Of a DNA stretch of 42,492 nucleotides, positions 11,894-36,150 are shown piece by piece. Both the position numbers and the translations under genes were made by a program. The notes under the pieces are model-generated. The model saw nothing but the letters and a program-made list of their open reading frames with translations, made no database searches and was not told the DNA's origin. Origin of the DNA: Spirochaetota bacterium (GTDB taxonomy: Bacteria > Spirochaetota > Spirochaetia > SZUA-6 > Fen-1364); NCBI GenBank assembly GCA_026398635.1, contig JAPLSM010000190.1, positions 1 through 42,492 on the forward strand. The letters are read 5' to 3'. The number at the start of each line of letters is the position of its first letter. Within the stretch, counting starts at the first letter, position 1.

Positions 11894-12205
11894 ATGGACG
11901 TCCTGAAGGAGATCCAGCAGGCGGAGGCGCAGGCCCGCGGAATCGAACGCGAGTACGCGGAGAAGGCGAAATCCCTCGCAGCCGGCACGGCCGAGGAGCT
12001 GGCACGGCTGCAGGCCGAGCGGGAAGCCGCCCTCAAGCGAGAACTGGCGGCTCTGAAGGCGACGCTCGACCAGGACCTTGAGCGCGAGAACAAGGCGGCC
12101 TCCGACCGCACCCGCACCGAGCTCGCCAAGCTCGAGACCCGCACGCGCGCGCGAGGAGAGGCCGCGGCGGCTATCATACTCGGAAAGGCCGGTCTCTCGA
12201 GATGA
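11894..12205 (+). CDS. V-type ATPase peripheral stalk subunit (H/NtpF/AhaH-like)
   Basis: 103-aa coiled-coil protein at first position of the ATPase operon; 4-bp overlap with subunit I. Confidence 0.75.
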   Translation: MDVLKEIQQAEAQARGIEREYAEKAKSLAAGTAEELARLQAEREAALKRELAALKATLDQDLERENKAASDRTRTELAKLETRTRARGEAAAAIILGKAGLSR

Positions 12206-14220
12206 GCATCGCACGCATGCTCCACGCCGACCTCGTGTGCGACGCCGGCGCGGGTGCCGATCTCGTGTCGCGTCTCGAGCGGGCCGGCATCCTCCAGGTC
12301 ATCGACCTGCACCAGGGTCTTCCCGAGGAGCTCGGCGTCATCGAGCGCAGGCCGGATCTCGATGCTCCCGGCCTGGACGAGGAGCTTCAGAAGGTCCGCC
12401 AGGTGCTCGAAACGTTCGACCGGTTCCTGCCGGTGAAGAAGGGGATGCTGCAGGGCTTCTTCGGGTCCCCGCCGTTCGTCACGGAGCAGCAGCTGCAGGA
12501 GATCGCCGAACGCCTCGATGCCGACCGGTACGCGCCGGAGCTTCAGCAGCGCACTGAAGAGCACGATCGAACGATCTCTGAGCTCGAGGATGCACGGGAA
12601 CTCCAAGCCCGGCTCGCGCCGTGGGAAGCCCTGGATCTCGATCTCGCGGCGCTGGCGTCGGCGCGTCACTCATCAATTGTGACCGTCCAGGCGACCACTA
12701 CCCAGCACGAGACCCTCTCCACCCTCGTGCGCGAGTCTGGTGCCGGCAGCGACTTCGCCTGGCAGGAAGTCGGGCATGACGACAGGACGCTGTGGGGAGG
12801 CTGGGCGACCCTCGCCGATCGGCGCGCCGACCTGGAAGGGTGGATTCGGCAGGCCGGCGTCTCGCCCGTGCACCTTCCCGATATCGCCGAGACTCCTCGA
12901 GTCGCGCTGGCCCGGCTCGCCACAAAGATCGCTACCCTCGAGAGTCGCCGGGATGCGCTCGCCTCCAGCCTGGCCGCCGATGCCGCCGAGAAGCGTCCGC
13001 TGGCGCAGGCCCTGCACGACGAGCTCGCAAACCAGCGGAAGAACACCCGGGTGCCGGGCAGCTTCTTCTCCACCAGGACTGTCACCGTCGCGCGCGGGTG
13101 GGTGCTCGAACGCGATCGGGTCCGGCTGGAAGCCCTGGCCGCGGAGGCGGGAGCGGACCTCGTGCTCCGCAAGCCCCTGAAGGAGGAGAGCCCGCCGGTG
13201 TTCCTCGTGAACCGCAGGCTCCTCAGGCCGTACCAGATCCTGCTCGAGATGTTTGGGCTGCCCTCGTACACGGGATTCGATCCCACCGTCTTCGTAGGCG
13301 TGGCCATGACGCTCTTCTACTCGATCTGCCTCGGCGACGTGGGGTACGGTCTCGTGCAGGTGCTCCTCGCGGTCCTCCTGAAACGCAAGTACAAACCGGC
13401 GGCCGGTACCCGGCTCTTCCTGGACCTGTTCGTCCAGCTCGGCATCGGCGCCGCGTGCTTCGGCCTGCTCACCTGGAGCTTCTTCGGCACCAGCCCCGGG
13501 TACAAGCCGGGCGGTCCTAAGATCCTCGGCATCCTGCCCCTGATCTCCCCGACGAACGACTTCCTGCTGATCATCGGCGTGGGACTCGCTGTGGGCGTCC
13601 TCGTGCAGATGTCCTCGATCGGCGCGGGGCTCGTGAACGCGTTGAAGAACGGCGACGTGAAGGCAGCGATCTTCGACTTCGGCGCGTGGCTGGCGATGCT
13701 GTTCGGGCTGCAGCTCTGGGCGGCTACGAAGTTTCTGCCGGGCCTGCCCGCCGTCGTCTCCACCGTGGGGCTCGCGATCATGAGCCTCGGGGCCCTCGTG
13801 ATCATCGGTTTCGCCGGCCGGGACGCGAAGACCATCGGCGGACGCCTGGCTACGGGGGTCATCTCCCTTTATGGCATCGTCGGGGCCTACGGCATCGTCT
13901 CATACTTCTCGGACGTGCTCTCGTTCTCGCGCCTCGCCATCCTGAACCTGACCAGCGGCTTCATCGCGATGGTCGGCAACCTGCTGGGCTCCCTTGTGAC
14001 CTCGACGGCCGGGGTGCTCGCGACGATCCTCACACTGCCGTTCGGCATCCTGATCGTAGTGCTCTTCCACGTGCTGAACGTCGTGCTCTCCATGCAGGGG
14101 GCGTTCATCCACTCCCTGCGGCTCAACTACCTGGAATCCTTCGGCCGCTACTACCGTGGCGGCGGACGGCCCTTCCTCCCGCTGCGTCGGGAGGGGACCC
14201 ATTATCGCTTCGAACAGTAG
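12202..14220 (+). CDS. ntpI: V-type ATP synthase subunit I
   Basis: 672 aa; soluble coiled-coil N-terminus and multi-TM C-terminus (FDPTVFVGVAMTLFYSICLGDVGYG; VVLFHVLNVVLSMQGAFIHSLRLNYLESFGRYYRGGGRPF). Confidence 0.93.
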   Translation: MSIARMLHADLVCDAGAGADLVSRLERAGILQVIDLHQGLPEELGVIERRPDLDAPGLDEELQKVRQVLETFDRFLPVKKGMLQGFFGSPPFVTEQQLQEIAERLDADRYAPELQQRTEEHDRTISELEDARELQARLAPWEALDLDLAALASARHSSIVTVQATTTQHETLSTLVRESGAGSDFAWQEVGHDDRTLWGGWATLADRRADLEGWIRQAGVSPVHLPDIAETPRVALARLATKIATLESRRDALASSLAADAAEKRPLAQALHDELANQRKNTRVPGSFFSTRTVTVARGWVLERDRVRLEALAAEAGADLVLRKPLKEESPPVFLVNRRLLRPYQILLEMFGLPSYTGFDPTVFVGVAMTLFYSICLGDVGYGLVQVLLAVLLKRKYKPAAGTRLFLDLFVQLGIGAACFGLLTWSFFGTSPGYKPGGPKILGILPLISPTNDFLLIIGVGLAVGVLVQMSSIGAGLVNALKNGDVKAAIFDFGAWLAMLFGLQLWAATKFLPGLPAVVSTVGLAIMSLGALVIIGFAGRDAKTIGGRLATGVISLYGIVGAYGIVSYFSDVLSFSRLAILNLTSGFIAMVGNLLGSLVTSTAGVLATILTLPFGILIVVLFHVLNVVLSMQGAFIHSLRLNYLESFGRYYRGGGRPFLPLRREGTHYRFEQ

Positions 14221-14232
14221 GAGGCTCACCAG

Positions 14233-14721
14233 ATGGATTTTTCGATCGGATTCGGCATCGCCCTGGCTGGCGGCGCTCTGGCCGCGGGCATGGGCGCCTC
14301 GGGCGCCTCGATCGGCGTGGGGCTGGCCGGCGAGATGGCGGCTGGCGTTCTGTCGGAGGATCCCGACAAGTTCGGCCAGATGCTCATCCTCCAGGCGCTC
14401 CCCGGCACGCAGGCCATCTACAGCCTCGTCGTGGCCATCCTCGTCATGGTGAAGCTGCAGGTCTTCGGCGGGGGCGGCGGCCTGTACGACCTCCCCCTGG
14501 CGAAGGGAATCGCGGTCTTCGCCGCCTGCATCCCCTGCATGCTCGGGGAGTTCATCTCCGCGATCTGGCAGGGACGGGCATCGGTCGGCGCGGCCGGCAT
14601 GGTGGCCAGACGCCCAGACGCGTTCGGCAAGGCTGTCATCCTGCCCGCCATGGTCGAGACCTTCGCGCTGCTCAGCCTGATCGCGACCATCCTGCTGCTC
14701 ATGATCGCGATCCAGTTCTAG
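14233..14721 (+). CDS. ntpK: V-type ATP synthase subunit K (double-hairpin proteolipid)
   Basis: 162 aa, 4 TM; LPGTQ in TM2, IWQG in TM3, MVETF in TM4. Confidence 0.95.
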   Translation: MDFSIGFGIALAGGALAAGMGASGASIGVGLAGEMAAGVLSEDPDKFGQMLILQALPGTQAIYSLVVAILVMVKLQVFGGGGGLYDLPLAKGIAVFAACIPCMLGEFISAIWQGRASVGAAGMVARRPDAFGKAVILPAMVETFALLSLIATILLLMIAIQF

Positions 14722-14730
14722 GACCTCGGG

Positions 14731-15303
14731 ATGCCAGAAACGAGCATCGCGCGCCGGATCCTCGAGGCTGCCCGGCGCGCGGGCGAAGAAACGCTGGCCG
14801 CGGAACGCGCCCGGCAGGCCGAGGCGCTGAGGCAGGGGTCCGACCGCATCGACGCCGCAATGGCCGCACGCCGGGTGGCGGCGGAGAAGCGCCTTCGGGA
14901 GTCGCTCCAGCAGGCGGTATCCGCCTTCCGGCTGGCTGAGGCCAACCGCGTACGCACCGAACGCCGGAAGTCCCTCGACGGCGTGGTGGCGGGAGCGTGG
15001 CGGAAGGCACTCGAGCCCGCGGCCTACCGGGCCTGGATCGAGCGCACTCTCTCCGATCACTGCCGGAAGGGCGACGAGATCGTGGTCGCCGGGTCACAAA
15101 GATCCCAGTTCGAGAAGGACTTCGCGCCGTTGCTCGCGAAGCACGGGGTGCGGCTGTCGGACGAACGCGGCGTGTTCCAGGCCGGCTTCGTGGCAGTGCG
15201 GCCCGGTTCCGGCCTGCGTCTGAATTGCTCGCTCGACAAGGCGTTCGCCGAGGCGTTGCGCGCGACCGAGATAGAGGTCGGCCGCACGCTCTTCGCCTCG
15301 TAG
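14731..15303 (+). CDS. ntpE: V-type ATP synthase subunit E
   Basis: Coiled-coil N-terminus, E-subunit-like C-terminus, position in operon. Confidence 0.85.
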   Translation: MPETSIARRILEAARRAGEETLAAERARQAEALRQGSDRIDAAMAARRVAAEKRLRESLQQAVSAFRLAEANRVRTERRKSLDGVVAGAWRKALEPAAYRAWIERTLSDHCRKGDEIVVAGSQRSQFEKDFAPLLAKHGVRLSDERGVFQAGFVAVRPGSGLRLNCSLDKAFAEALRATEIEVGRTLFAS

Positions 15304-15315
15304 AAGGGCGGCGAG

Positions 15316-16311
15316 GTGGGAAGGGTTCCGGGCTACAACTTCCTCTGCGGCATCCTCCGCAGCCGGGAGACCGGATTCGTCACGGCACAGCGCCTCGAAG
15401 CCGTGCTCGCGGCTCGCGGGTTCGACGACGCCGTGGCGCAGCTTCCCGACGGCCCGTTCGCCGCGGAAGTGCGCCGGGCGCCGGGCTTCGAAGGTCTCGA
15501 ACGGGGGGCCCGCGCGGAAACCGCAGCGCTGCGCGACCTGCTCGCGAAGTATTCGCCCAGCGCTTCGCTGGAGGGGCTGCTGCTGGCACCCCTCGACTGG
15601 TTCAACCTGAAGGTTGCGGTCCTCCAGAAGCTCACCGGCAGGCGCGACGAGCGGCTCCCGGGTCCCGAGGGCAGCCTGCGCTTCACCGAGGTGAGCGCCA
15701 TGGCGGAAGCCGGGCGCTACGAGGGCCTCGCCCGATCGTTCGCCGACGCGCTTGGCGCCGCGCTCGCCGCGTACAACGAGGCAGGGCACAGCACCCAGGC
15801 GTTCGAGCTGGCACTGGACCGGCAGCGGGAGCTTGCGCTGCTCGCCCTGGCCCGGGACGTCTCGAGCGAGCTGGGAAGTCACGCCGGGGAATCGGCGGAC
15901 CTGTCGGCGGCGCTCGTGCTCTCACGTGCCGCGCTGGCAGGCATTCCCTGGACCGTGGCGCGGCATGCCTTCGCCGGCCACGTCGACGAGGCGCGCTTCG
16001 CCGAGCTCGCCGGCTTGAAACCGGCCGAATGGGCTGCCAGAGTCGGCGGCATCGGCAGCACGGTCATCCGCGAGGTGCTCGCCGCAGTCGCCGCAGGCGG
16101 GGACGTGGCGGAGATAGCCGCGGCGCGCCGGCGGAAGCTCGCGACGCGCATCAGGGACTGGCGCTTCCGGCCGCCCTCGGCGGAGTACGCGTACTGGTGG
16201 ATGTCGCGCAAGCTTGCGGACCTCGCGAATCTGCGGCTCGCGCTCGTTTGCCGGCTGAATGGCCTGCCGGAGGCGGAAACGCGGAAGAGGATCGACGATG
16301 GCCTCCTATAG
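15316..16311 (+). CDS. ntpC: V-type ATP synthase subunit C
   Basis: 331-aa helical protein beginning RVPGYNFLCGILRSRE (GTG start); operon position E-C-F. Confidence 0.85.
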   Translation: MGRVPGYNFLCGILRSRETGFVTAQRLEAVLAARGFDDAVAQLPDGPFAAEVRRAPGFEGLERGARAETAALRDLLAKYSPSASLEGLLLAPLDWFNLKVAVLQKLTGRRDERLPGPEGSLRFTEVSAMAEAGRYEGLARSFADALGAALAAYNEAGHSTQAFELALDRQRELALLALARDVSSELGSHAGESADLSAALVLSRAALAGIPWTVARHAFAGHVDEARFAELAGLKPAEWAARVGGIGSTVIREVLAAVAAGGDVAEIAAARRRKLATRIRDWRFRPPSAEYAYWWMSRKLADLANLRLALVCRLNGLPEAETRKRIDDGLL

Positions 16312-16639
16312 GATCGCGATGATCGGGGACGACTCGTCGACCGGCGGGTTCGCAGCCGGAGGCGTGGTGGGGGTTCCTGCCGCTACGCCTTCCGAGGCGC
16401 TGGAGCGGCTCAACCGGCTCGTCGCATCGGGAGAGTACGCGATCGTGTTCATCACCGAAGGTCTCGCCGAGCCCATCCTGGCCGACATCGCAGCCCTGCC
16501 GCGCACCGCGGTGCCCGCGGTCGTGGTGGTGCCCGACCAGGGCGGCTCGCGGGGCATCGGGTTCCGGAAGATCCAGGTCGCCGTCGAGAAGGCGCTCGGC
16601 CTGGACCTGCTCGGCAAGGAAGGGATCGGGAGGGAGTAG
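16298..16639 (+). CDS. V-type ATP synthase subunit F
   Basis: YRIAMIGDDSSTGGFAAGGV...YAIVFITEGLAEPI; ATG 16298 (ORF track starts upstream at 16259). Confidence 0.88.
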   Translation: MASYRIAMIGDDSSTGGFAAGGVVGVPAATPSEALERLNRLVASGEYAIVFITEGLAEPILADIAALPRTAVPAVVVVPDQGGSRGIGFRKIQVAVEKALGLDLLGKEGIGRE

Positions 16640-16643
16640 CGAG

Positions 16644-18404
16644 ATGGCGGGAAGGATCGTGCGGGTGTCGGGGCCCCTGGTCGTGGCTGAGGGTCTCGAG
16701 CACCCGATGATGTACGAGGTCGTCAAGGTGGGCAAACTCGGCCTGTTCGGCGAAATCATCAGCCTGAAGGCCGGCCGGGCGTCCATCCAGGTCTACGAGC
16801 AGACCGAGGGGCTCGGGCCCGGGGAGCCCGTCGTGAACACGGGTGAGCAGCTCAGCGTCGAGCTGGGTCCCGGGTTGATCCGGCAGATCTACGACGGTAT
16901 CCAGCGGCCCCTGGACGTCATCAGCCGCAAGCACGGTGACTTCATCCCCCGGGGAATCGAGGAGCCGGCCCTCTCGCAGGAGGCACGGTGGGAGTTCGTC
17001 CCGGCGGCGAAGTCCGGCCAGAAGGTCGAGGGTGGGCACCGGCTCGGCTACGTCGAAGAGAGCGACATCGTGCGGCACTGGATCATGGTGCCGCCCGGCC
17101 TCTCGGGCGTGCTGAAGGACCTCTCGGCGGGCACGTACACGGTGCGGGACGTGATCGGGCACCTCGAGCTGCCGGATGGCTCGGTGCTCGACCTCCGGCT
17201 CGCCCACCGGTGGCCCGTGCGCCGGGGCCGCCCGTACCGCCGGAAGCTGAACCCCGACGTGCCGCTCGTCACCGGGCAGCGCGTGCTCGACACGTTCTTC
17301 CCCGTGGCCAAGGGCGGCACGGCCTGCATCCCGGGCCCCTTCGGCAGCGGAAAGACCGTGGTCCAGCACCAGCTCGCCAAGTGGGCCGACGCGGACATCA
17401 TCGTGTATATAGGCTGCGGAGAGCGGGGCAACGAAATGACCGACGTGCTCCTCGAGTTCCCCGAGCTCACCGACCCCCGGACCGGCAAGCCCCTGATGGA
17501 GCGCACGGTCCTGATCGCGAACACCTCGAACATGCCGGTAGCCGCACGGGAGGCGTCGGTCTTCACCGGCATCACGATCGCCGAATACTACCGGGACATG
17601 GGCTACAACGTTGCCCTGATGGCCGATTCCACGTCCCGGTGGGCGGAAGCCATGCGCGAGATCTCGGGACGCCTCGAGGAGATGCCGGGCGAGGAGGGCT
17701 ACCCCGCGTACCTGGCCTCGCGGATCGCGTCGTTCTACGAGCGGGCGGGGAGGGTGGTGCCGGGCGGCAGCGACGAGGAGGCCACGCTTTCGGTGATCGG
17801 CGCGGTCTCGCCCCCCGGCGGAGACCTCTCCGACCCGGTCGTTCAGGGCACCCTGCGCGAGGTGCGCGTGTTCTGGGGCCTCGACGCGAAGCTCGCGTAC
17901 GCCCGTCACTTCCCGGCAATCAACTGGCTCAACTCCTATTCACTGTACTCGGACACCATGGGCGCCTGGTACGACGGGGAGGTCTCGAAGGAGTGGCTCC
18001 CCAACCGGGATGCCGCGCTGCGGATATTGCAGGAGGAGGCCGAGCTCGAGGAGATCGTGCGCCTCGTAGGCGTCGACTCCCTCTCGCCGAAAGACCGGCT
18101 GACGCTGGAGACCGCGCGGTCGATCCGGGAGGACTTCCTTCAACAAGATGCCTTCCACGAGGTGGACACCTACTCGTCGCTCGCCAAGCAGTTCCAGATG
18201 CTCGGAGCGATCCTGCTCGCCCACGGGCTGGCTCTGCGGGCCGTGGCGGCGGGGACCCCGCTGGATTCCCTGCTCGGCCTCCCGTACAAGGAGCGGATCG
18301 CGCGCATGAAGTACCACCCCGAGGACGAGATGGACCAGATCAAGGCGGTGCACGATGAGATCCGCGCCGCCTTCGCGGGCCTGGCGCAGGGGGTGACGGC
18401 ATGA
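16644..18404 (+). CDS. ntpA: V-type ATP synthase catalytic subunit A
   Basis: Walker [77 protein letters not shown]. Confidence 0.98.
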
Positions 18405-19804
18405 TCAAGGAGTACCAAACCGTCGCGGCCATCGAGGGGCCGCTCATGATCGTGCAGGACGTCGCAGAGGCAACCTACGGCGAGCTGGTCGAGGTGGAGC
18501 TGGCAGGCGGCCTCATGCGGCGCGGGCAGGTGCTCGACGCGAGCGAAGGCCGCGCCGTGGTCCAGCTGTTCGAGTCGTCCCAGGGCATCAGCGCCACCCG
18601 GGCGACGGTGCGGTTCCTCGGCAGGGGCATGACACTCCCCGTGTCGAAAGACCTGCTCGGCAGGATCTTCAACGGCGTCGGCGACCCCATCGACGGGGCC
18701 GGCGCGGTCGTCCCCGAGGCCTCGGCGGACATCAACGGGGCACCGATCAACCCGTTCAGCAGGGACTACCCCTCCGAGTTCATCCAGACGGGCGTCTCGG
18801 CCATCGACGGCCTGCTCACGCTCGTGCGCGGCCAGAAGCTGCCCATCTTCACGGGTTCCGGCCTGCCGCACGCCCAGCTCGCGGCGCAGATCGCCCGGCA
18901 GGCGAAAACCCTCGGAGCAGCGGGGGAGTTCGCGGTCGTCTTCGCGGCCATGGGCATCACCTTCGAGGAATCGAACTTCTTCATCGAGGACTTCCGGCGC
19001 ACGGGAGCCATCGAGCGGGCGGTTCTGTTCGTGAACCTGGCCAACGACCCCGTCATCGAGCGCATCGCCATCCCGCGTGTGGCTCTGACCGCCGCGGAGT
19101 ACCTGGCGTTCACCCTCGACATGCACGTGCTCGTGATCCTCACCGACATGACCAACTACTGCGAGGCCCTGCGCGAGGTGTCCGCGGCACGCAAGGAGGT
19201 GCCCGGCCGGCGCGGGTACCCCGGCTACATGTACACGGACCTCTCGACGATCTACGAGCGCGCAGGCCGTATCAAGGGCCGCAAGGGCTCCATCACCCAG
19301 TTCCCGATCCTCACCATGCCCGAGGACGACAAGACGCACCCCCTCCCCGACCTCACCGGGTACATCACCGAGGGGCAGGTGTTCCTCGGACGGGAGATCC
19401 AGCGCAAAGGGGTGCTCCCGCCCATCAACGTGCTTCCGTCGTTGTCCCGGCTGATGCAGAAGGGCATCGGTGCCGGAAGGACCCGCGAGGACCACGCGGA
19501 CGTGGCGAACCAGCTCTTCGCCGCCTACGCCAGGGGCGTCGAGGTGCGCGAGCTGGCCGTGGTGCTCGGCGAGGCGGCCCTGACGCCCGCCGACCGGATC
19601 TACGTGAAGTTCGCCGACGAGTTCGAGCGGACCTTCGTGAACCAGGGATTCAATGAGAACCGTTCGATCGAGGAGACGCTGGACATCGGCTGGAAGCTGC
19701 TGGCCATTCTGCCGCGCGCCGAGCTGAAGCGTGTACGTGCCGCGTTTATCGAGAAGTACTTGCCGGCCGCGCCAGCCGACGTCGCCGGGGCGGCGGCGGG
19801 GTAG
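18401..19804 (+). CDS. ntpB: V-type ATP synthase subunit B
   Basis: [54 protein letters not shown]; overlaps subunit A by 4 bp. Confidence 0.98.
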
Positions 19805-19807
19805 GGG

Positions 19808-20425
19808 ATGCCGGTACAGGTCAATCCGAACCGCATGGAGCTGCTGAAGCTCAAGCGGAAACAGGTGGTGGCCCGGCGCGGCCACAAGCTGCTGAAGGAT
19901 AAGCTCGAGGGGCTCCTGCGCGACTTCCTGCGCATCGTGCGCGAGTACCGCGAGCTGCGCCGCGCGGTGGATGGCGAGATCAGCACGGTGTTCGCGGGTC
20001 TCGTGCTGGCCTCTGCCGGCATGAACGCATCCGCCTTCCGGGCGGCCCTCGCGTTCCCCTCGTGCACGGCGCGCCTCGAGGTTTCGGAGCGTCACATCAT
20101 GAACGTGCGCGTGCCGGTGTTCCGTTTTTCCCTCGAAGGCAGCCTCGTCGCCTACGGCCTGGCGGACACCAACCGCGACCTCGACCGGGCCATGGGCCGG
20201 GTGCGCGAGGTTCTCGAGCGGATGGTGCGTCTTGCCGAGGTGGAGAAGACCGTCGAGCTTGTGGCTGCTGAAATCGAACGCACCCGCCGGCGGGTGAACG
20301 CGCTCGAATACATCCTCATCCCCCAACAGGAGGAGGCAATCTCCGGCATCGAGGGGAAGCTCGACGAGATGGAGCGTTCCAACACCACGCGCCTGATGAA
20401 GATCAAGGAGATGCTGGGCGCCTGA
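19808..20425 (+). CDS. ntpD: V-type ATP synthase subunit D
   Basis: NPNRMELLKLKRKQVVARRGHKLLKDKLEGLLRDFL; ERTRRRVNALEYILIP. Confidence 0.95.
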   Translation: MPVQVNPNRMELLKLKRKQVVARRGHKLLKDKLEGLLRDFLRIVREYRELRRAVDGEISTVFAGLVLASAGMNASAFRAALAFPSCTARLEVSERHIMNVRVPVFRFSLEGSLVAYGLADTNRDLDRAMGRVREVLERMVRLAEVEKTVELVAAEIERTRRRVNALEYILIPQQEEAISGIEGKLDEMERSNTTRLMKIKEMLGA

Positions 20426-24000: not shown

Positions 24001-26565
24001 TCAACCGCCCTTCTCCTGGCCCTTCTTTTGGGTCCGTGCCTCGCCTCGCGCCTTCTCCGCCCGCTCCCGGCGGTCGGCCGCAGCCTCGGCGGCGAGCATC
24101 TTCCCCTTCGACGCCGGCGGCTTCGGGGGCTCGTACCCGCCCTCGACGTCGATGAGCTCGTAGACGATGGACGGCTGCTCCTTCCCCTTCACCTTCAGCA
24201 CGTCGAGCTCCCGCGCGATGACCTTGTCTTTCACCTCGGCGTAGGTGAGCTCGCTGATGAGGATACGGCTGTAGTGCCCTGCCCCCTTGCTGACGTCGTA
24301 GTACGCCTTGTTCGCCCCCTCGAGTCTTGAACCGAGGTTGACCGCGTCGCCGATCACCGTGTAGTTGAGGTGGTCACGCGATCCCATCAACCCCACGGTC
24401 ATGATGCCCGTGCTGATGCCGATGCCGATGTCGATGCGCTGGTTCTCGGACCACATCGCGTTGAAGATCTTGAGGTTTTCCATCTGCTTCAGCGCGCACT
24501 TGCACGCGAGCAGCGCGTGGTCGTCCTGCGCCACTGGAGCGCCCCAGTACCCCATCACCGCGTCGCCGATGTACTTGTCGATCGTACCGTTGTAGTCCTT
24601 GACGGTGTCCGCCATGATCGTGAGGTACTTGTTGAGGAAGTTGAGAAGCTCCTGCGCGGCCATCCGCTCCGAGATGGACGAGAAGCCCCGGATGTCGGAG
24701 AAGAAGACGGTCATGCTCTTGTCCCGGCCGCCCGGCTCGGGGGGGTGCTCGAGGATTTCCTTCAGGACTGCCGGGCCGACCATCTTGCTGAAGATCGCCT
24801 TGTTGCGCCGCTTGTCGCGTTCCTCGAACACCGTCCGGTAGGCGACGACCGCGAGGAAGCACAGGAATGAGCCGAAGACCGGCGCCGAGAGTGTCAGTAT
24901 GTAGGCGTTGAAATCGAAGAGCACGAGGACAACGCCGAAGTAGGCGACCAGGGCCACGACGAGCGCCACCAGCGACCAGACCGTGGACAGGCGGGACGTC
25001 ATGAAGGCGGTCAGCATCACCATGCCGAAGAGGATAAGAATGCTCAGCCAGAACGGCGCATAACGGAGGAAGTTGCCCATGAGGATGGTGTTCAGCGCGT
25101 TCGCGTGGATCTCCACCCCGAACATGAGCCCGAACGGCGTGGGCTTCTGGTCCTCGGCCATGCCCTGTGCGAAGGCGCCCAGCATGACGATCTTGTTCGC
25201 CATCCCCAGGGTGTCATCCCAGGCTTCGGGATCCGATCCGGGCGGCGAGGAGGCGTAGCGGGAGTACGAGCGGACGGGATACGTGGAGGATGACCCGAAT
25301 GTGGCGCTGGAGGGATAACCCATGAAGTTGATCAGCATCTGACCGTGCTCGTCGATGGGGATCCGGAGCTCGGTCAGCACCTTCCGCTGCTCTGCCTTCA
25401 CGACCGCTCCAGTGGCCTCGTCGACTTTCGCCGGCCGTGTGACGATCGAATACGGTTCCAACGCTTTCGTCTCGGAATTGTATCGCTTGGGCGAGGGTAT
25501 GAGAATGTGCTCGCCCAGCTTGACCTCGACATCCGAGAGCTTCACGTTCAGGTACTCGGCGGCGAGGGCCAGCGCGATGGATGGCAGCCACGTCTCCCGG
25601 TACTTGCGCACGACGAACGTGACCCGGTCGACCGTGCCGTCGCCGTCGCGGTCCTCCTCTGTCGCGGGCGGCGCCTTGCTCGTTATCGTCTTCCGCAGCT
25701 CCGCGATCTCGTTCTCGGGGTCATCCCCCTTCGGGGGCCAGGGAATGTCGTGCTCGACATTGTGGGTGTCCCTCCAGGAAAGGCGTTCGAAGGCCGCGGT
25801 GTCGACCTTCGTGTCGACCGAGAGCTCGTCGAGCGGGATCTCCTCCACGAGCTGGGAAGCTCGGGCGACGAGCGACGCGCGCCGGTAGACCTGGTCCTCG
25901 TCCTGCACGTAGTTCGCGTGCCCGTACCCGTACGTGGCCCGAGTGTACGGCGAGAGCGGGGGCTTCATGCCGAGGAAAGAATCCACCTTCTTCCAGTCGC
26001 CCGTGATGCGGGTGATCGTCCCGAAACGCTCCGCGAGGACCTCCTGCCGGTCGAACGGCCCCTCGCCTTCCATTTCCGGGTACTCCTCGCGCTGGAGGAC
26101 GGTCTCGAGGAAGACCCGGCCGTTCTCGCGAATGGCATCGACCACCGCCGCGTCATCCTGGGGGGCTTTTCCATCCGGCTCGTTGAAGAAGATGTCGAGG
26201 AACAGGGCCCGCTCGCGCTCGTCCTGATTGCGAATCCGCGAGAAGGTGTTGAGGAGGTCCGCGTGCCGGTAGCGCGGGAACGGCCACCGGCCGAACCGGG
26301 CGAGCGCCCGTTCGTCGATGCCGACGATCAGGATGTCCGGGGAGATCCGCGGGTTCGTCTCCTCGACCGTCACTCCCTCCTGGATCCGTGTGGTGGCCTT
26401 GGGGTTCTTCATCCGGAAGTTGAAGTCCAGGACCTTGGTCTCGAGGTTGGAGATGAGCAGGGTCCCGTACGTCATGCCGGCCATGAGCCCAAAGACCACG
26501 AGCCCGATCAGGAGCCCGAACCACTTCGTCTCGAGGAAGCGCCTCGTGAACCCTTTCTCTGCCAT
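24001..26565 (-). CDS. CHASE2-domain class III adenylate cyclase
   Basis: Extracytoplasmic CHASE2-like region (ILIVGIDERALARFGRWPFPRYRHADLL), TM segments, cyclase domain TVFFSDIRGFSSISE...GTIDKYIGDAVMGYWGAP...YTVIGDAVNLGSRLEG. Confidence 0.93.
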   Translation of the reverse strand: MAEKGFTRRFLETKWFGLLIGLVVFGLMAGMTYGTLLISNLETKVLDFNFRMKNPKATTRIQEGVTVEETNPRISPDILIVGIDERALARFGRWPFPRYRHADLLNTFSRIRNQDERERALFLDIFFNEPDGKAPQDDAAVVDAIRENGRVFLETVLQREEYPEMEGEGPFDRQEVLAERFGTITRITGDWKKVDSFLGMKPPLSPYTRATYGYGHANYVQDEDQVYRRASLVARASQLVEEIPLDELSVDTKVDTAAFERLSWRDTHNVEHDIPWPPKGDDPENEIAELRKTITSKAPPATEEDRDGDGTVDRVTFVVRKYRETWLPSIALALAAEYLNVKLSDVEVKLGEHILIPSPKRYNSETKALEPYSIVTRPAKVDEATGAVVKAEQRKVLTELRIPIDEHGQMLINFMGYPSSATFGSSSTYPVRSYSRYASSPPGSDPEAWDDTLGMANKIVMLGAFAQGMAEDQKPTPFGLMFGVEIHANALNTILMGNFLRYAPFWLSILILFGMVMLTAFMTSRLSTVWSLVALVVALVAYFGVVLVLFDFNAYILTLSAPVFGSFLCFLAVVAYRTVFEERDKRRNKAIFSKMVGPAVLKEILEHPPEPGGRDKSMTVFFSDIRGFSSISERMAAQELLNFLNKYLTIMADTVKDYNGTIDKYIGDAVMGYWGAPVAQDDHALLACKCALKQMENLKIFNAMWSENQRIDIGIGISTGIMTVGLMGSRDHLNYTVIGDAVNLGSRLEGANKAYYDVSKGAGHYSRILISELTYAEVKDKVIARELDVLKVKGKEQPSIVYELIDVEGGYEPPKPPASKGKMLAAEAAADRRERAEKARGEARTQKKGQEKGG

Positions 26566-31272: not shown

Positions 31273-32149
31273 GCTCGTAGAACCATTTGACCTCGCGCTC
31301 GGTCAGCCGCCGGAACCGGCCGGGCGCGAGGCCGCGCAGGGTGACGACCCCGATGCGGATCCGGTGCACGCGCTTCACCCGGATGCGACGCGTCGCGAAC
31401 ACATTGCGCAGCTCCCGGTTCTTCCCCTCGACCAGGGTGATCAGCACTGAGTGGTCCGACCTCAGCTCGTACGCCTCGCATCGGTAGCGCACCCCTTCGA
31501 TCCAGAAGCCCTTGCGGTACTGCTCCATGAAGGGCTCGTCGATCGCTCGGGCCGTCTCCACGAGATACTGCTTTTCGACACGCGATCCGGGATGGCTCAC
31601 CACCCGGTCGAACTCACCGTCGTTGGTGTAGAAGATCAGGCCAGTGGAGAGGTAGTCCAGCCGGCCGACGTGGAACAACCGCTCCTTGATCGCCCCCTTG
31701 AAGAGGTCCGAGGCGAGGGGCCGTCCCTCGGGGTCGGCGTTCGCGCACAGGTACCCCGCCGGCTTGTGCACGGCGAGGTAGACCAGACTCGAGACGGGCT
31801 TCACGATCCGGCCGTCGACCGTCACACGGTCGCTGAAAGCGACCTTCGTGCCCAGCCGATCGACACGGGTCTCGTTCACCTGCACCCGGCCCGCGAGGAT
31901 GATCTCCTCGCATCCCCTGCGGGAGCCCAGGCCGCAGCGGGCCAGGTAGACCTGGAGACGGATGCCCGCCGCCCCGCCCGCCGAGCCGGACCGGACAGTC
32001 GGTCTGCCCGAAGCCGCCGTACGCGGCTCGACCCTGGCTCCCCGCGGGGTGGCTGGACGGCCCCGCGGTTGCCGGGCAGTCCGTTCAGGCTCCGGCCGGT
32101 TCAGCCGGTCCGGGTTCTTCCCCCTGGGCCGCTTCATGCGGTCGTTCAT
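31256..32149 (-). CDS. rluB: RsuA/RluB-family 23S/16S rRNA pseudouridine synthase
   Basis: S4-like region (RLQVYLARCGLGSRRGCEEIILAGRVQVN), catalytic GRLDYLSTGLIFYTNDGE; AGGAGG SD before ATG 32149. Confidence 0.85.
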   Translation of the reverse strand: MNDRMKRPRGKNPDRLNRPEPERTARQPRGRPATPRGARVEPRTAASGRPTVRSGSAGGAAGIRLQVYLARCGLGSRRGCEEIILAGRVQVNETRVDRLGTKVAFSDRVTVDGRIVKPVSSLVYLAVHKPAGYLCANADPEGRPLASDLFKGAIKERLFHVGRLDYLSTGLIFYTNDGEFDRVVSHPGSRVEKQYLVETARAIDEPFMEQYRKGFWIEGVRYRCEAYELRSDHSVLITLVEGKNRELRNVFATRRIRVKRVHRIRIGVVTLRGLAPGRFRRLTEREVKWFYEHGGSA

Positions 32150-32690
32150 CCCGTTCCTCCTGTTCGAACCGTTCCCTCTCTAGGCCGTCCAGCTTCGGCA
32201 GGTCCGCGATCGAAGCGAGGCGGAACGCCTTCAGGAACTCCTTCGTGGTGCCGAATTGCACGGGCCGGCCCACGGTCTCCTTGCGGCCGATCTCGCGAAT
32301 GAGCGACCGTGACACCAGGAGCCGGATCATGCCGTCGGCCTGCACGCCCCGGATGCTCTCGATCTCGGCCCGGGTGATGGGCTGCGAGTACGCGATGATG
32401 GCGAGCGTCTCGAGGGCGGCCCTCGAGAGCCGGTTCTCGGCCGACTTCCCGTAGCGGCCGCGCAGGCCTTCCCACAGGTCGCGGCGCGGCGCGAAGGAGA
32501 ACCCGCCTCCGATGTCGACGATCTCGAGGCCGTGCCCTCCCTCAGCGAGCGCCAATCGAAGCTCGGACACCGCCGCGGCGGCCGCCTCGGGCTCGAGCCC
32601 CGCCGCGGAGGCAAGGCGCTGCAGCTCGAGCGGCTCGCTCTCCAGCAGCAACACCGCTTCGACGAGCGCTGCCTCCCTGCTAAGGCTCAT
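32085..32690 (-). CDS. scpB: Segregation and condensation protein B
   Basis: SRAALETLAIIAYSQPITRAEIESIRGVQADGMIRLLVSRSLIREIGRKETVGRPVQFGTTKEFL. Confidence 0.95.
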   Translation of the reverse strand: MSLSREAALVEAVLLLESEPLELQRLASAAGLEPEAAAAAVSELRLALAEGGHGLEIVDIGGGFSFAPRRDLWEGLRGRYGKSAENRLSRAALETLAIIAYSQPITRAEIESIRGVQADGMIRLLVSRSLIREIGRKETVGRPVQFGTTKEFLKAFRLASIADLPKLDGLERERFEQEERDERPHEAAQGEEPGPAEPAGA

Positions 32691-34035
32691 GCCGTGTCGT
32701 CTCCTCGGCCGTCGGGCTCCCGCGGACTGCGATCGGCGCCGAGCCCGCTTCCGAAGCCGTCGCCACCGGCGGCCGCGCCTTGATGCGGATGTCCCCGAAC
32801 AGCCGGTTCTGGAACACCGTGATGTGCCGCGCCTTGACCATCTCGAGCACCGCGAAGAAGGCGCACACCACCTCGAGCACGGACCGGCGGCGCAGCAGGT
32901 CCGTGAACAGGAACTCGTCTCGGCTCTCGAGCATTTCGCCGATCAGGGTGACCTTCTCGTTGATGCTGACCTCTTCGTACAGGTCGATGATGCGTTCCGC
33001 GCTGAGGCTCGACAGCAGCGAGGAGAACGTCTGCAGCAGGTCCCAGACGCTCACCTCGCCCCAGATGCCGTCGTCGGTGAACGGGAGGATCCGCTGGTCC
33101 CTTCCGCGCTCCACGATCCACTCGACCTCGCCTTCCTTCTCGCTCATGAGGTCGCTCAGGCGCCGGAACTTCTGATACTCGATGAGCTTCTCCACGAGCT
33201 CCCGCCGCGGGTCCTCGATCTCGTCGTCGAGATCGAGCTCCACGGGCAGCAGCATGCGGCTCTTGATGTACAGCAGCGTGGCTGCCATCAGGTAGAATTC
33301 GCTCATCGTGTCGAGGTCGGCTTTCGCCGACCAGCCGAGCACGGAGAGGTACTGCTCGGTGATCGAGGCGATGGGGATGTCGTAGATGTTGACTTCGGAC
33401 TGCTTGATGAGGAACAGGAGCAGGTCCAGGGGACCGTCGAAGTCTTTGAGGTGGAAGTGCTGCTTCTCGGGGGGGCCGTTGTCGGACATGACGGGGCGGG
33501 TCTCCCTGGGAACGTCGGAATCGGCAATCGGCGAGGCAGGATGAGTATACTTCCCGACCGGATACGAGTAAACACCCGCTTGGCCGATGCGTGCCAGCAC
33601 GGCCGCGTACGCCTCGCCGGTGCGGGGGTCCGCGAGGTCCGGTGCGATCTCGAGCAGCGGCACCAGGACAAAGGCGCGTTCCGCGAGCCGCGGGTGCGGC
33701 AGCGTCAGCTCGGGATCGTCGCTGAGGTGCCCCTCGTACAACAATATGTCCACGTCGATGGTCCGGGGGCCCCGTCGCACCTCGACGGACCGGTTCCTCC
33801 CGAGCGACCCCTCGATTGCCTGCACCGCCGCGAGCAGCTCGCGGGGAGCGAGCCGGGTCGTGCCGGCGGCGACGGCATTGAGGAACCGGGGCTGCGAGAC
33901 GACGTCGAGAGGCTCGGTCTCGTAGATCGAGGACAACTCCAGTCGTTCGCACACGCCGCTGAGCATCCGGAAGGTCTCGCGGATCGCAGCCTCACGGTCG
34001 CCGAGGTTGGAACCGAGCGAAAGCCAGACCCGCAA
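32680..34035 (-). CDS. folK-scpA: Fused ORF: HPPK (FolK, residues 1-~150) + linker + ScpA (from internal Met183)
   Basis: HPPK motifs LSLGSNLGDR, GPRTIDVDILLYEG; ScpA motifs FDGPLDLLLFLIKQSEVNIYDIPIASITEQYL, FYLMAATLLYIKSRMLLP; continuous frame with no stop. Confidence 0.92.
   Translation of the reverse strand: MRVWLSLGSNLGDREAAIRETFRMLSGVCERLELSSIYETEPLDVVSQPRFLNAVAAGTTRLAPRELLAAVQAIEGSLGRNRSVEVRRGPRTIDVDILLYEGHLSDDPELTLPHPRLAERAFVLVPLLEIAPDLADPRTGEAYAAVLARIGQAGVYSYPVGKYTHPASPIADSDVPRETRPVMSDNGPPEKQHFHLKDFDGPLDLLLFLIKQSEVNIYDIPIASITEQYLSVLGWSAKADLDTMSEFYLMAATLLYIKSRMLLPVELDLDDEIEDPRRELVEKLIEYQKFRRLSDLMSEKEGEVEWIVERGRDQRILPFTDDGIWGEVSVWDLLQTFSSLLSSLSAERIIDLYEEVSINEKVTLIGEMLESRDEFLFTDLLRRRSVLEVVCAFFAVLEMVKARHITVFQNRLFGDIRIKARPPVATASEAGSAPIAVRGSPTAEETTRHEP
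33544..33572 (-). promoter_or_regulatory. Candidate sigma-70-like promoter inside folK-scpA linker
   Basis: TTTACT (33572-33567) - 17 nt - TATACT (33549-33544), about 55 nt upstream of internal ATG at 33489. Confidence 0.45.
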
Positions 34036-34038
34036 AGC

Positions 34039-35265
<1,227 letters not shown>

Positions 35266-35407
35266 GGATACCCCTCCCCCCTCCCCGGAGTCCGACCGGT
35301 TAAACGGCCCCGAACGGCGCGCTGCTTGTCGGCGCCTCGATCGGGAATACCCACGCGGCGCCGATTTTCATGCGTCCGTGCATCAGAGCGGTCCGGCCGT
35401 GCCGATA

Positions 35408-35435
35408 AGTATACCGGGAACCATGCGGATGTCCA
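35408..35435 (-). promoter_or_regulatory. Candidate recA promoter
   Basis: TGGACA (35435-35430) - 16 nt - TATACT (35413-35408); implies ~135-nt recA leader. Confidence 0.5.
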
Positions 35436-35478
35436 GACTGCGCGGCCGATCGGTGCCTGCGCGAAGCGCGCGCCGGTG

Positions 35479-36150
35479 ATGGCTGTCAGGCCATTCCTCG
35501 TCTTCCTCCTGCTCCTCGCCACGGTGCATCCCGCCGGCGCGCTCTGGCGCGAGTTCGCCCTCGCCTCCGACCGTTCGAACGATCCCGTCATCCTCGATCT
35601 TCTCGAAGATGCGACGCTGGACGAGCGACTCGAAATCCTGGCAGCGGTCGGGGAACGCGCGGATCCCTTCATTGGCGCGTACCTCGATGATTTCCTGCTC
35701 CGGCACACCTCCCGGCCCGCGGAATCCGAGCACCTGATGCGGGTGCTGCTCGCGTCGGCCTTCCCCCGGTCGACGGCACTGGATCAGCTCGCCGAACGGG
35801 TCGCGCCGAACCAGGCGGCCCTCCTCGCGGCGTCCGCCCGGCTCGCGACCTTCGTAGATCCACAGCTCTGCGCCGCAATCGTTCGGCTCATCCCCCTGCT
35901 GCCGGGCGGGCTTTCCGATCTGCTCGGGATCGTCGACCGACTCGTCAACCGGCTCGGGCAGGGGGACGGCTTCCTGGATCCCCGGGACGACGGCCTGCTT
36001 CTCGATGCCCTGGAGGCGATGGGTCGAATCGGATCGCCCGACTTCCTCGAGCCCGCACTCGCCGTTGCACGCCTCTCGCGCGAAAGGATCGTGGTCGAAC
36101 GGTCGCGCGCCGTCGCACGGGCGCTTGCCCTCGACGGGACCGGTCGGTAG
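35479..36150 (+). CDS. Secreted HEAT-repeat-like protein
   Basis: ATG 35479 (GTG 35476 alternative); signal peptide MAVRPFLVFLLLLATVHPAGA; helical repeats ending LLLDALEAMGRIGSPDFLEPALAVARL. Confidence 0.65.
   Translation: MAVRPFLVFLLLLATVHPAGALWREFALASDRSNDPVILDLLEDATLDERLEILAAVGERADPFIGAYLDDFLLRHTSRPAESEHLMRVLLASAFPRSTALDQLAERVAPNQAALLAASARLATFVDPQLCAAIVRLIPLLPGGLSDLLGIVDRLVNRLGQGDGFLDPRDDGLLLDALEAMGRIGSPDFLEPALAVARLSRERIVVERSRAVARALALDGTGR

Follow-up and report, generated by a model that had tools for sequence, protein, structure and literature searches.

The recA-folK-scpA-scpB cluster and its fused frame

The window, i.e. the whole stretch of 42,492 nucleotides that was analysed, contains the gene order recA-folK-scpA-scpB-pseudouridine synthase-cmk-rpsA, as identified by Pfam matches. 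Reading of the open frames revealed that FolK and ScpA are encoded in a single frame of 451 codons, which runs from 34035 to 32680 on the minus strand without an internal stop, as the first-pass annotation had described it; the frame is real as assembled. Its TTG start at 34035 is located 3 nt past the recA stop and in recA's own frame, and the recA and folK frames are kept apart by the recA TAG alone. The source genome is a draft of 3.94 Mb in 491 contigs, with contamination at 7.4%, in which folK and scpA are each single-copy, while FolP and SMC are encoded elsewhere (SMC on contig C19). The locus comprises the following features.

35408..35435, minus strand: promoter-like TGGACA-16-TATACT upstream of recA (consensus match only)
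34039..35265, minus strand: recA, directly upstream of folK (PF00154)
32680..34035, minus strand: FolK-ScpA fused open frame, 451 aa, TTG start, TAG stop (open reading frame and Pfam)
33565..34035, minus strand: FolK (HPPK) domain, residues 1-157 including the last strand VYS (PF01288, AlphaFold, invariant active site)
33567..33572, minus strand: -35 element TTTACT of the predicted scpA promoter, overlapping codons V155-S157 (promoter scan and conservation)
33544..33549, minus strand: -10 element TATACT of the predicted scpA promoter, codons Y163-T164 (promoter scan and conservation)
33490..33543, minus strand: scpA 5' leader, 54 nt, fusion residues 165-182; flat codon-position GC, no stop in any frame
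33502..33507, minus strand: AGGGAG, 12 nt ahead of the scpA ATG, possible Shine-Dalgarno sequence (from sequence)
32680..33489, minus strand: ScpA from its own ATG, 269 aa (PF02616, PDB matches, homologues start here)
32085..32690, minus strand: scpB, sharing 11 nt with the end of scpA (PF04079)

Judging from its consensus match, the promoter-like sequence upstream of recA is the probable source of folK-containing transcripts. RecA itself (34039-35265) has a repetitive Ala/Pro-rich C-terminal tail with AVPAT repeats.

Both parts of the frame represent complete proteins, in agreement with the first reading of the sequence, with Pfam scores far over the cut-offs and invariant active-site residues. 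The HPPK profile PF01288 matches residues 5-132 (E 6e-38, 130 bits at a cut-off of 25.7, profile positions 2-116 of 116), and TIGR01498 matches the FolK part with 127 bits (cut-off 54.1). Residues R82, R91, D94, D96, H114 and R120 do not vary across an alignment of 17 sequences (the query and 16 relatives); we take them to be the equivalents of the catalytic residues R82, R92, D95, D97, H115 and R121 of E. coli. The FolK part is thus a complete HPPK with predicted pyrophosphokinase activity. The SMC_ScpA profile PF02616 matches residues 209-419 (E 3e-28, 99.7 bits at a cut-off of 24.6, profile positions 1-230 of 232), and this part also matches solved ScpA chains in the PDB. Met183 (ATG at 33489-33487) is the expected ScpA start, at which the homologues begin. 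With scpB overlapping the end of scpA and SMC present in the genome, the ScpA part represents a complete kleisin, for which bridging of the SMC heads and ScpB binding are predicted.

The linker between FolK and ScpA

The frame had initially been described as carrying a linker of about 33 aa. A linker indeed exists, but it is placed differently: residues 155-157 form the last strand of FolK in an AlphaFold model of FolK plus tail, in which the pLDDT is about 95 or more across most of residues 1-157 and drops to about 49-66 past about residue 157-160. The disordered part is modelled to span roughly residues 160-190, about 30 aa.

A promoter scan identified a sigma-70-type sequence, TTTACT-17-TATACT, at 33572-33544 inside this linker, where it encodes residues 154-164 (GVYSYPVGKYT). 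The strict motif TTTACN-N17/18-TATANT is present in 32 of 57 distinct folK-scpA junctions and in none of 2811 control windows, which were of the same lengths and from the same loci as the junctions; a looser motif is found in 37 of the 57 junctions and in 0.64% of the control windows. With the 17-nt spacer, only four matches occur on both strands of the window's own 3.94-Mb genome, one of which is this linker. A DNA alignment with the two same-family genomes shows no change in GGGTGTTTAC and TATACT, whereas the sequence around these blocks diverges. Of the 38 junctions counted with the promoter, 13 have the folK stop before the end of the -10 element, so that this element is kept whether it is coding or not. 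Moreover, the promoter pair is retained 8-90 nt before scpA at loci where folK is not beside scpA or ends well upstream (L063, L065, L072, L091, L094, L087 and L093), and it is therefore constrained as DNA. The element thus has what defines a sigma-70-type promoter, namely hexamers at a spacing of 16-18 nt that are conserved independently of coding. From its consensus and conservation, we conclude that TTTACT-17-TATACT is likely to act as scpA's own promoter. Because the codons of its -35 element, V155-S157, belong to FolK's last strand, the same stretch would serve both the protein and the promoter. A class-wide scpA promoter within the last codons of folK is better supported than any function of the fusion. 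Separate initiation of ScpA, which had been suggested at Met183, is well supported, but mainly through this class-wide conserved promoter, which is followed by AGGGAG and the ATG.

The composition of the linker differs from that of the flanking domains. The GC content at the three codon positions is 0.64/0.55/0.67 in the whole linker and 0.62/0.57/0.67 for residues 162-182, compared to 0.74/0.48/0.89 in FolK and 0.63/0.36/0.93 in ScpA; the deficit at the third position corresponds to a binomial p of ~1e-4 for the whole linker and of ~0.002 for residues 162-182 alone. This flat profile sets the leader apart from typical coding regions, as would be expected after a recent join. None of the three frames contains a stop between the FolK domain and the scpA ATG, and the first stops in the other two frames are located 184 and 800 nt inside scpA. 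A stop-free in-frame leader of this length has a chance of about 18% from base composition alone. The open frame taken alone therefore says little for selection, without which an occasional in-frame junction is expected. A conserved linker peptide was considered as an explanation and rejected, since QG[VI]Y belongs to FolK's last strand, and any conservation of the -10 element and the leader is at the level of DNA. From this we conclude that the FolK-ScpA linker consists of scpA's own conserved promoter and leader and is not an ordinary inter-domain linker.

The folK-scpA junction in related genomes

The recA-folK-scpA-scpB cluster has the same gene order in genomes of the same order or class (L004, L005, L010-L013, L039 and others), which also share the embedded promoter, the FolK tail QG[VI]Y and the ScpA start. 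These relatives keep a stop at the end of folK or have folK entering scpA in another frame, whereas here the frame is continuous. In both same-family genomes, folK and scpA are separate, with a folK TGA 24 nt past the -10 element; in one of these, L004, folK and scpA share one frame and are parted by this single TGA. The distance from the promoter to scpA is 54 nt here and 81 and 79 nt in the same-family genomes, and the segment of about 25 nt that bears the TGA in their leaders has no counterpart in the leader of the window according to a DNA alignment in which the gap placement is ambiguous. In several relatives (L008, L009, L014, L067, L068, L077 and L078), recA is directly followed by scpA, and folK is missing from the cluster.

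The survey for further fusions used the 451-aa query, with stops read through, on 397 other genomes of the class and about 200 more from the phylum. Among the matches listed from these about 600 genomes, no other uninterrupted FolK-ScpA frame was found, and the fused frame was thus seen in no second species there. At least 21 other class matches and, in the phylum search, at least two further ones span both domains, each with at least one stop, again among the matches listed; these were the best-scoring ones, and a fused frame of low conservation in a distant class could escape such a survey. In 15 other junctions, folK continues for 1-53 nt beyond the assigned ATG of scpA, in each case in a different frame, which makes an in-frame case an expected variant. 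The long open frames in L034-L038 and L043 turned out, on inspection, to be something other than FolK-ScpA fusions. A scan of genome contigs with the fusion as query yielded no close relative and only unrelated FolK matches, and no fusion of FolK/HPPK with ScpA was found in the non-subscription literature.

Fusions of HPPK with another complete protein do exist in nature, as in FolK-FolP (PDB 7mpy, 2bmb) and FolB-FolK (2cg8), which indicates that HPPK tolerates fusion. However, the partners in these proteins are enzymes of one pathway, whereas ScpA is unrelated to folate. NCBIfam NF001751/PRK00478 (505 positions) also describes ScpA with an N-terminal extension of about 160 residues, but the window protein reaches only 52 bits against this family (cut-off 436), with the match confined to the ScpA part.

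Origin of the fused frame and its expected products

The reading that we favour, with a probability of roughly 0.7, is a lineage-specific loss of the folK stop beside a nested scpA promoter, with both the fusion and free ScpA as products. The starting state would have been the conserved recA-folK-scpA(-scpB) cluster with the scpA promoter lying within the last folK codons. The leader between this promoter and scpA was then presumably shortened, probably by a short deletion that removed the folK stop, with the two frames happening to coincide, so that the folK frame would now extend past its own tail and, by way of the scpA promoter and leader, into scpA. Most likely, the fusion represents a recent accident in one lineage and not a designed two-function protein.

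Two products would be expected. Free ScpA (269 aa) would result from the embedded promoter and the ATG at 33489, and the 451-aa FolK-ScpA from transcripts that start upstream, on the recA side. In the latter, FolK would be N-terminal and ScpA C-terminal, and the domains should fold independently around the disordered linker of about 30 aa. Since there is no stop between FolK and ScpA, FolK would be made only as a fusion, unless translation or the mRNA ends early, and ScpA would occur in both forms. It is conceivable, at slightly less than even odds, that the organism has a naturally two-form kleisin: all FolK would be covalently joined to ScpA, free ScpA would be supplied alongside by the promoter nested within this gene, and some of the condensin would thus bear a folate enzyme.

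A selected bifunctional or moonlighting protein, in which FolK is tethered to a condensin subunit, for instance to co-regulate folate or nucleotide supply with chromosome segregation, is in our view highly improbable. Such a protein would agree with two intact, single-copy domains in a genome that encodes FolP and SMC elsewhere, with the known fusions of HPPK to other folate enzymes (PDB 7mpy, 2bmb, 2cg8) and with a disordered linker that would let both domains fold. However, no second genome with the fusion appeared among the matches listed, the composition of the linker is not coding-like, the scpA promoter and leader account for it, and no pathway joins the functions of FolK and ScpA. The first-pass annotation had considered a real bifunctional protein and proposed to look in relatives for linkers that contain a stop or shift the frame; both were found, and a conserved functional fusion is thus unsupported, with separate genes in both same-family genomes. 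The stops of the relatives count against a conserved fusion, and a fused protein in this lineage alone would still be compatible with them. It is even less probable, and indeed very unlikely, that the frame is open but the fusion hardly made, with folK transcripts that terminate or are silent in most conditions and only free ScpA of importance: ScpA owns a conserved promoter, but folK is the only HPPK gene and has a conserved active site, so it is presumably expressed, and any FolK that is translated must run on into ScpA.

A sequence or assembly error, i.e. a miscalled base or a small deletion that erased a true folK stop in the draft, is unlikely but deserves more weight. The assembly is a metagenome-type draft of many contigs, all relatives have a stop or a frame change, the missing piece is the TGA-bearing segment of about 25 nt, and the join could result from a substitution or from a short deletion made in assembly. 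On the other hand, the neighbouring genes are intact, and the promoter, the leader and the Shine-Dalgarno-like site are otherwise normal. A one-base frameshift artefact that joins separate genes was largely rejected, since no frame stops before the scpA ATG and a one-base indel could therefore not part the genes there.

If the stop loss beside the nested promoter is correct, the locus would represent a snapshot of unrelated neighbouring genes becoming one reading frame. A downstream promoter nested in the last codons of the upstream gene would keep the downstream protein separately available, and because free protein is supplied in this way, the cell can tolerate losing the upstream stop. The case also cautions that a two-domain open frame need not imply functional linkage, and a class-wide scpA promoter hidden in the 3' end of folK would be missed by gene-level annotation.

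An antisense open frame of 1212 aa at 32512-36150 (plus strand) crosses scpA, folK and recA and enters a small gene that looks genuine, located at about 35.5-36.1 kb and without a Pfam match; its antisense part is probably a high-GC artefact. Elsewhere in the window, a CHASE2-adenylate/guanylate cyclase protein is encoded at 24001-26565 (minus strand), and a run of V-type ATPase subunit-like genes is located at 12202-20326 (plus strand), as judged from the translations of the open frames.
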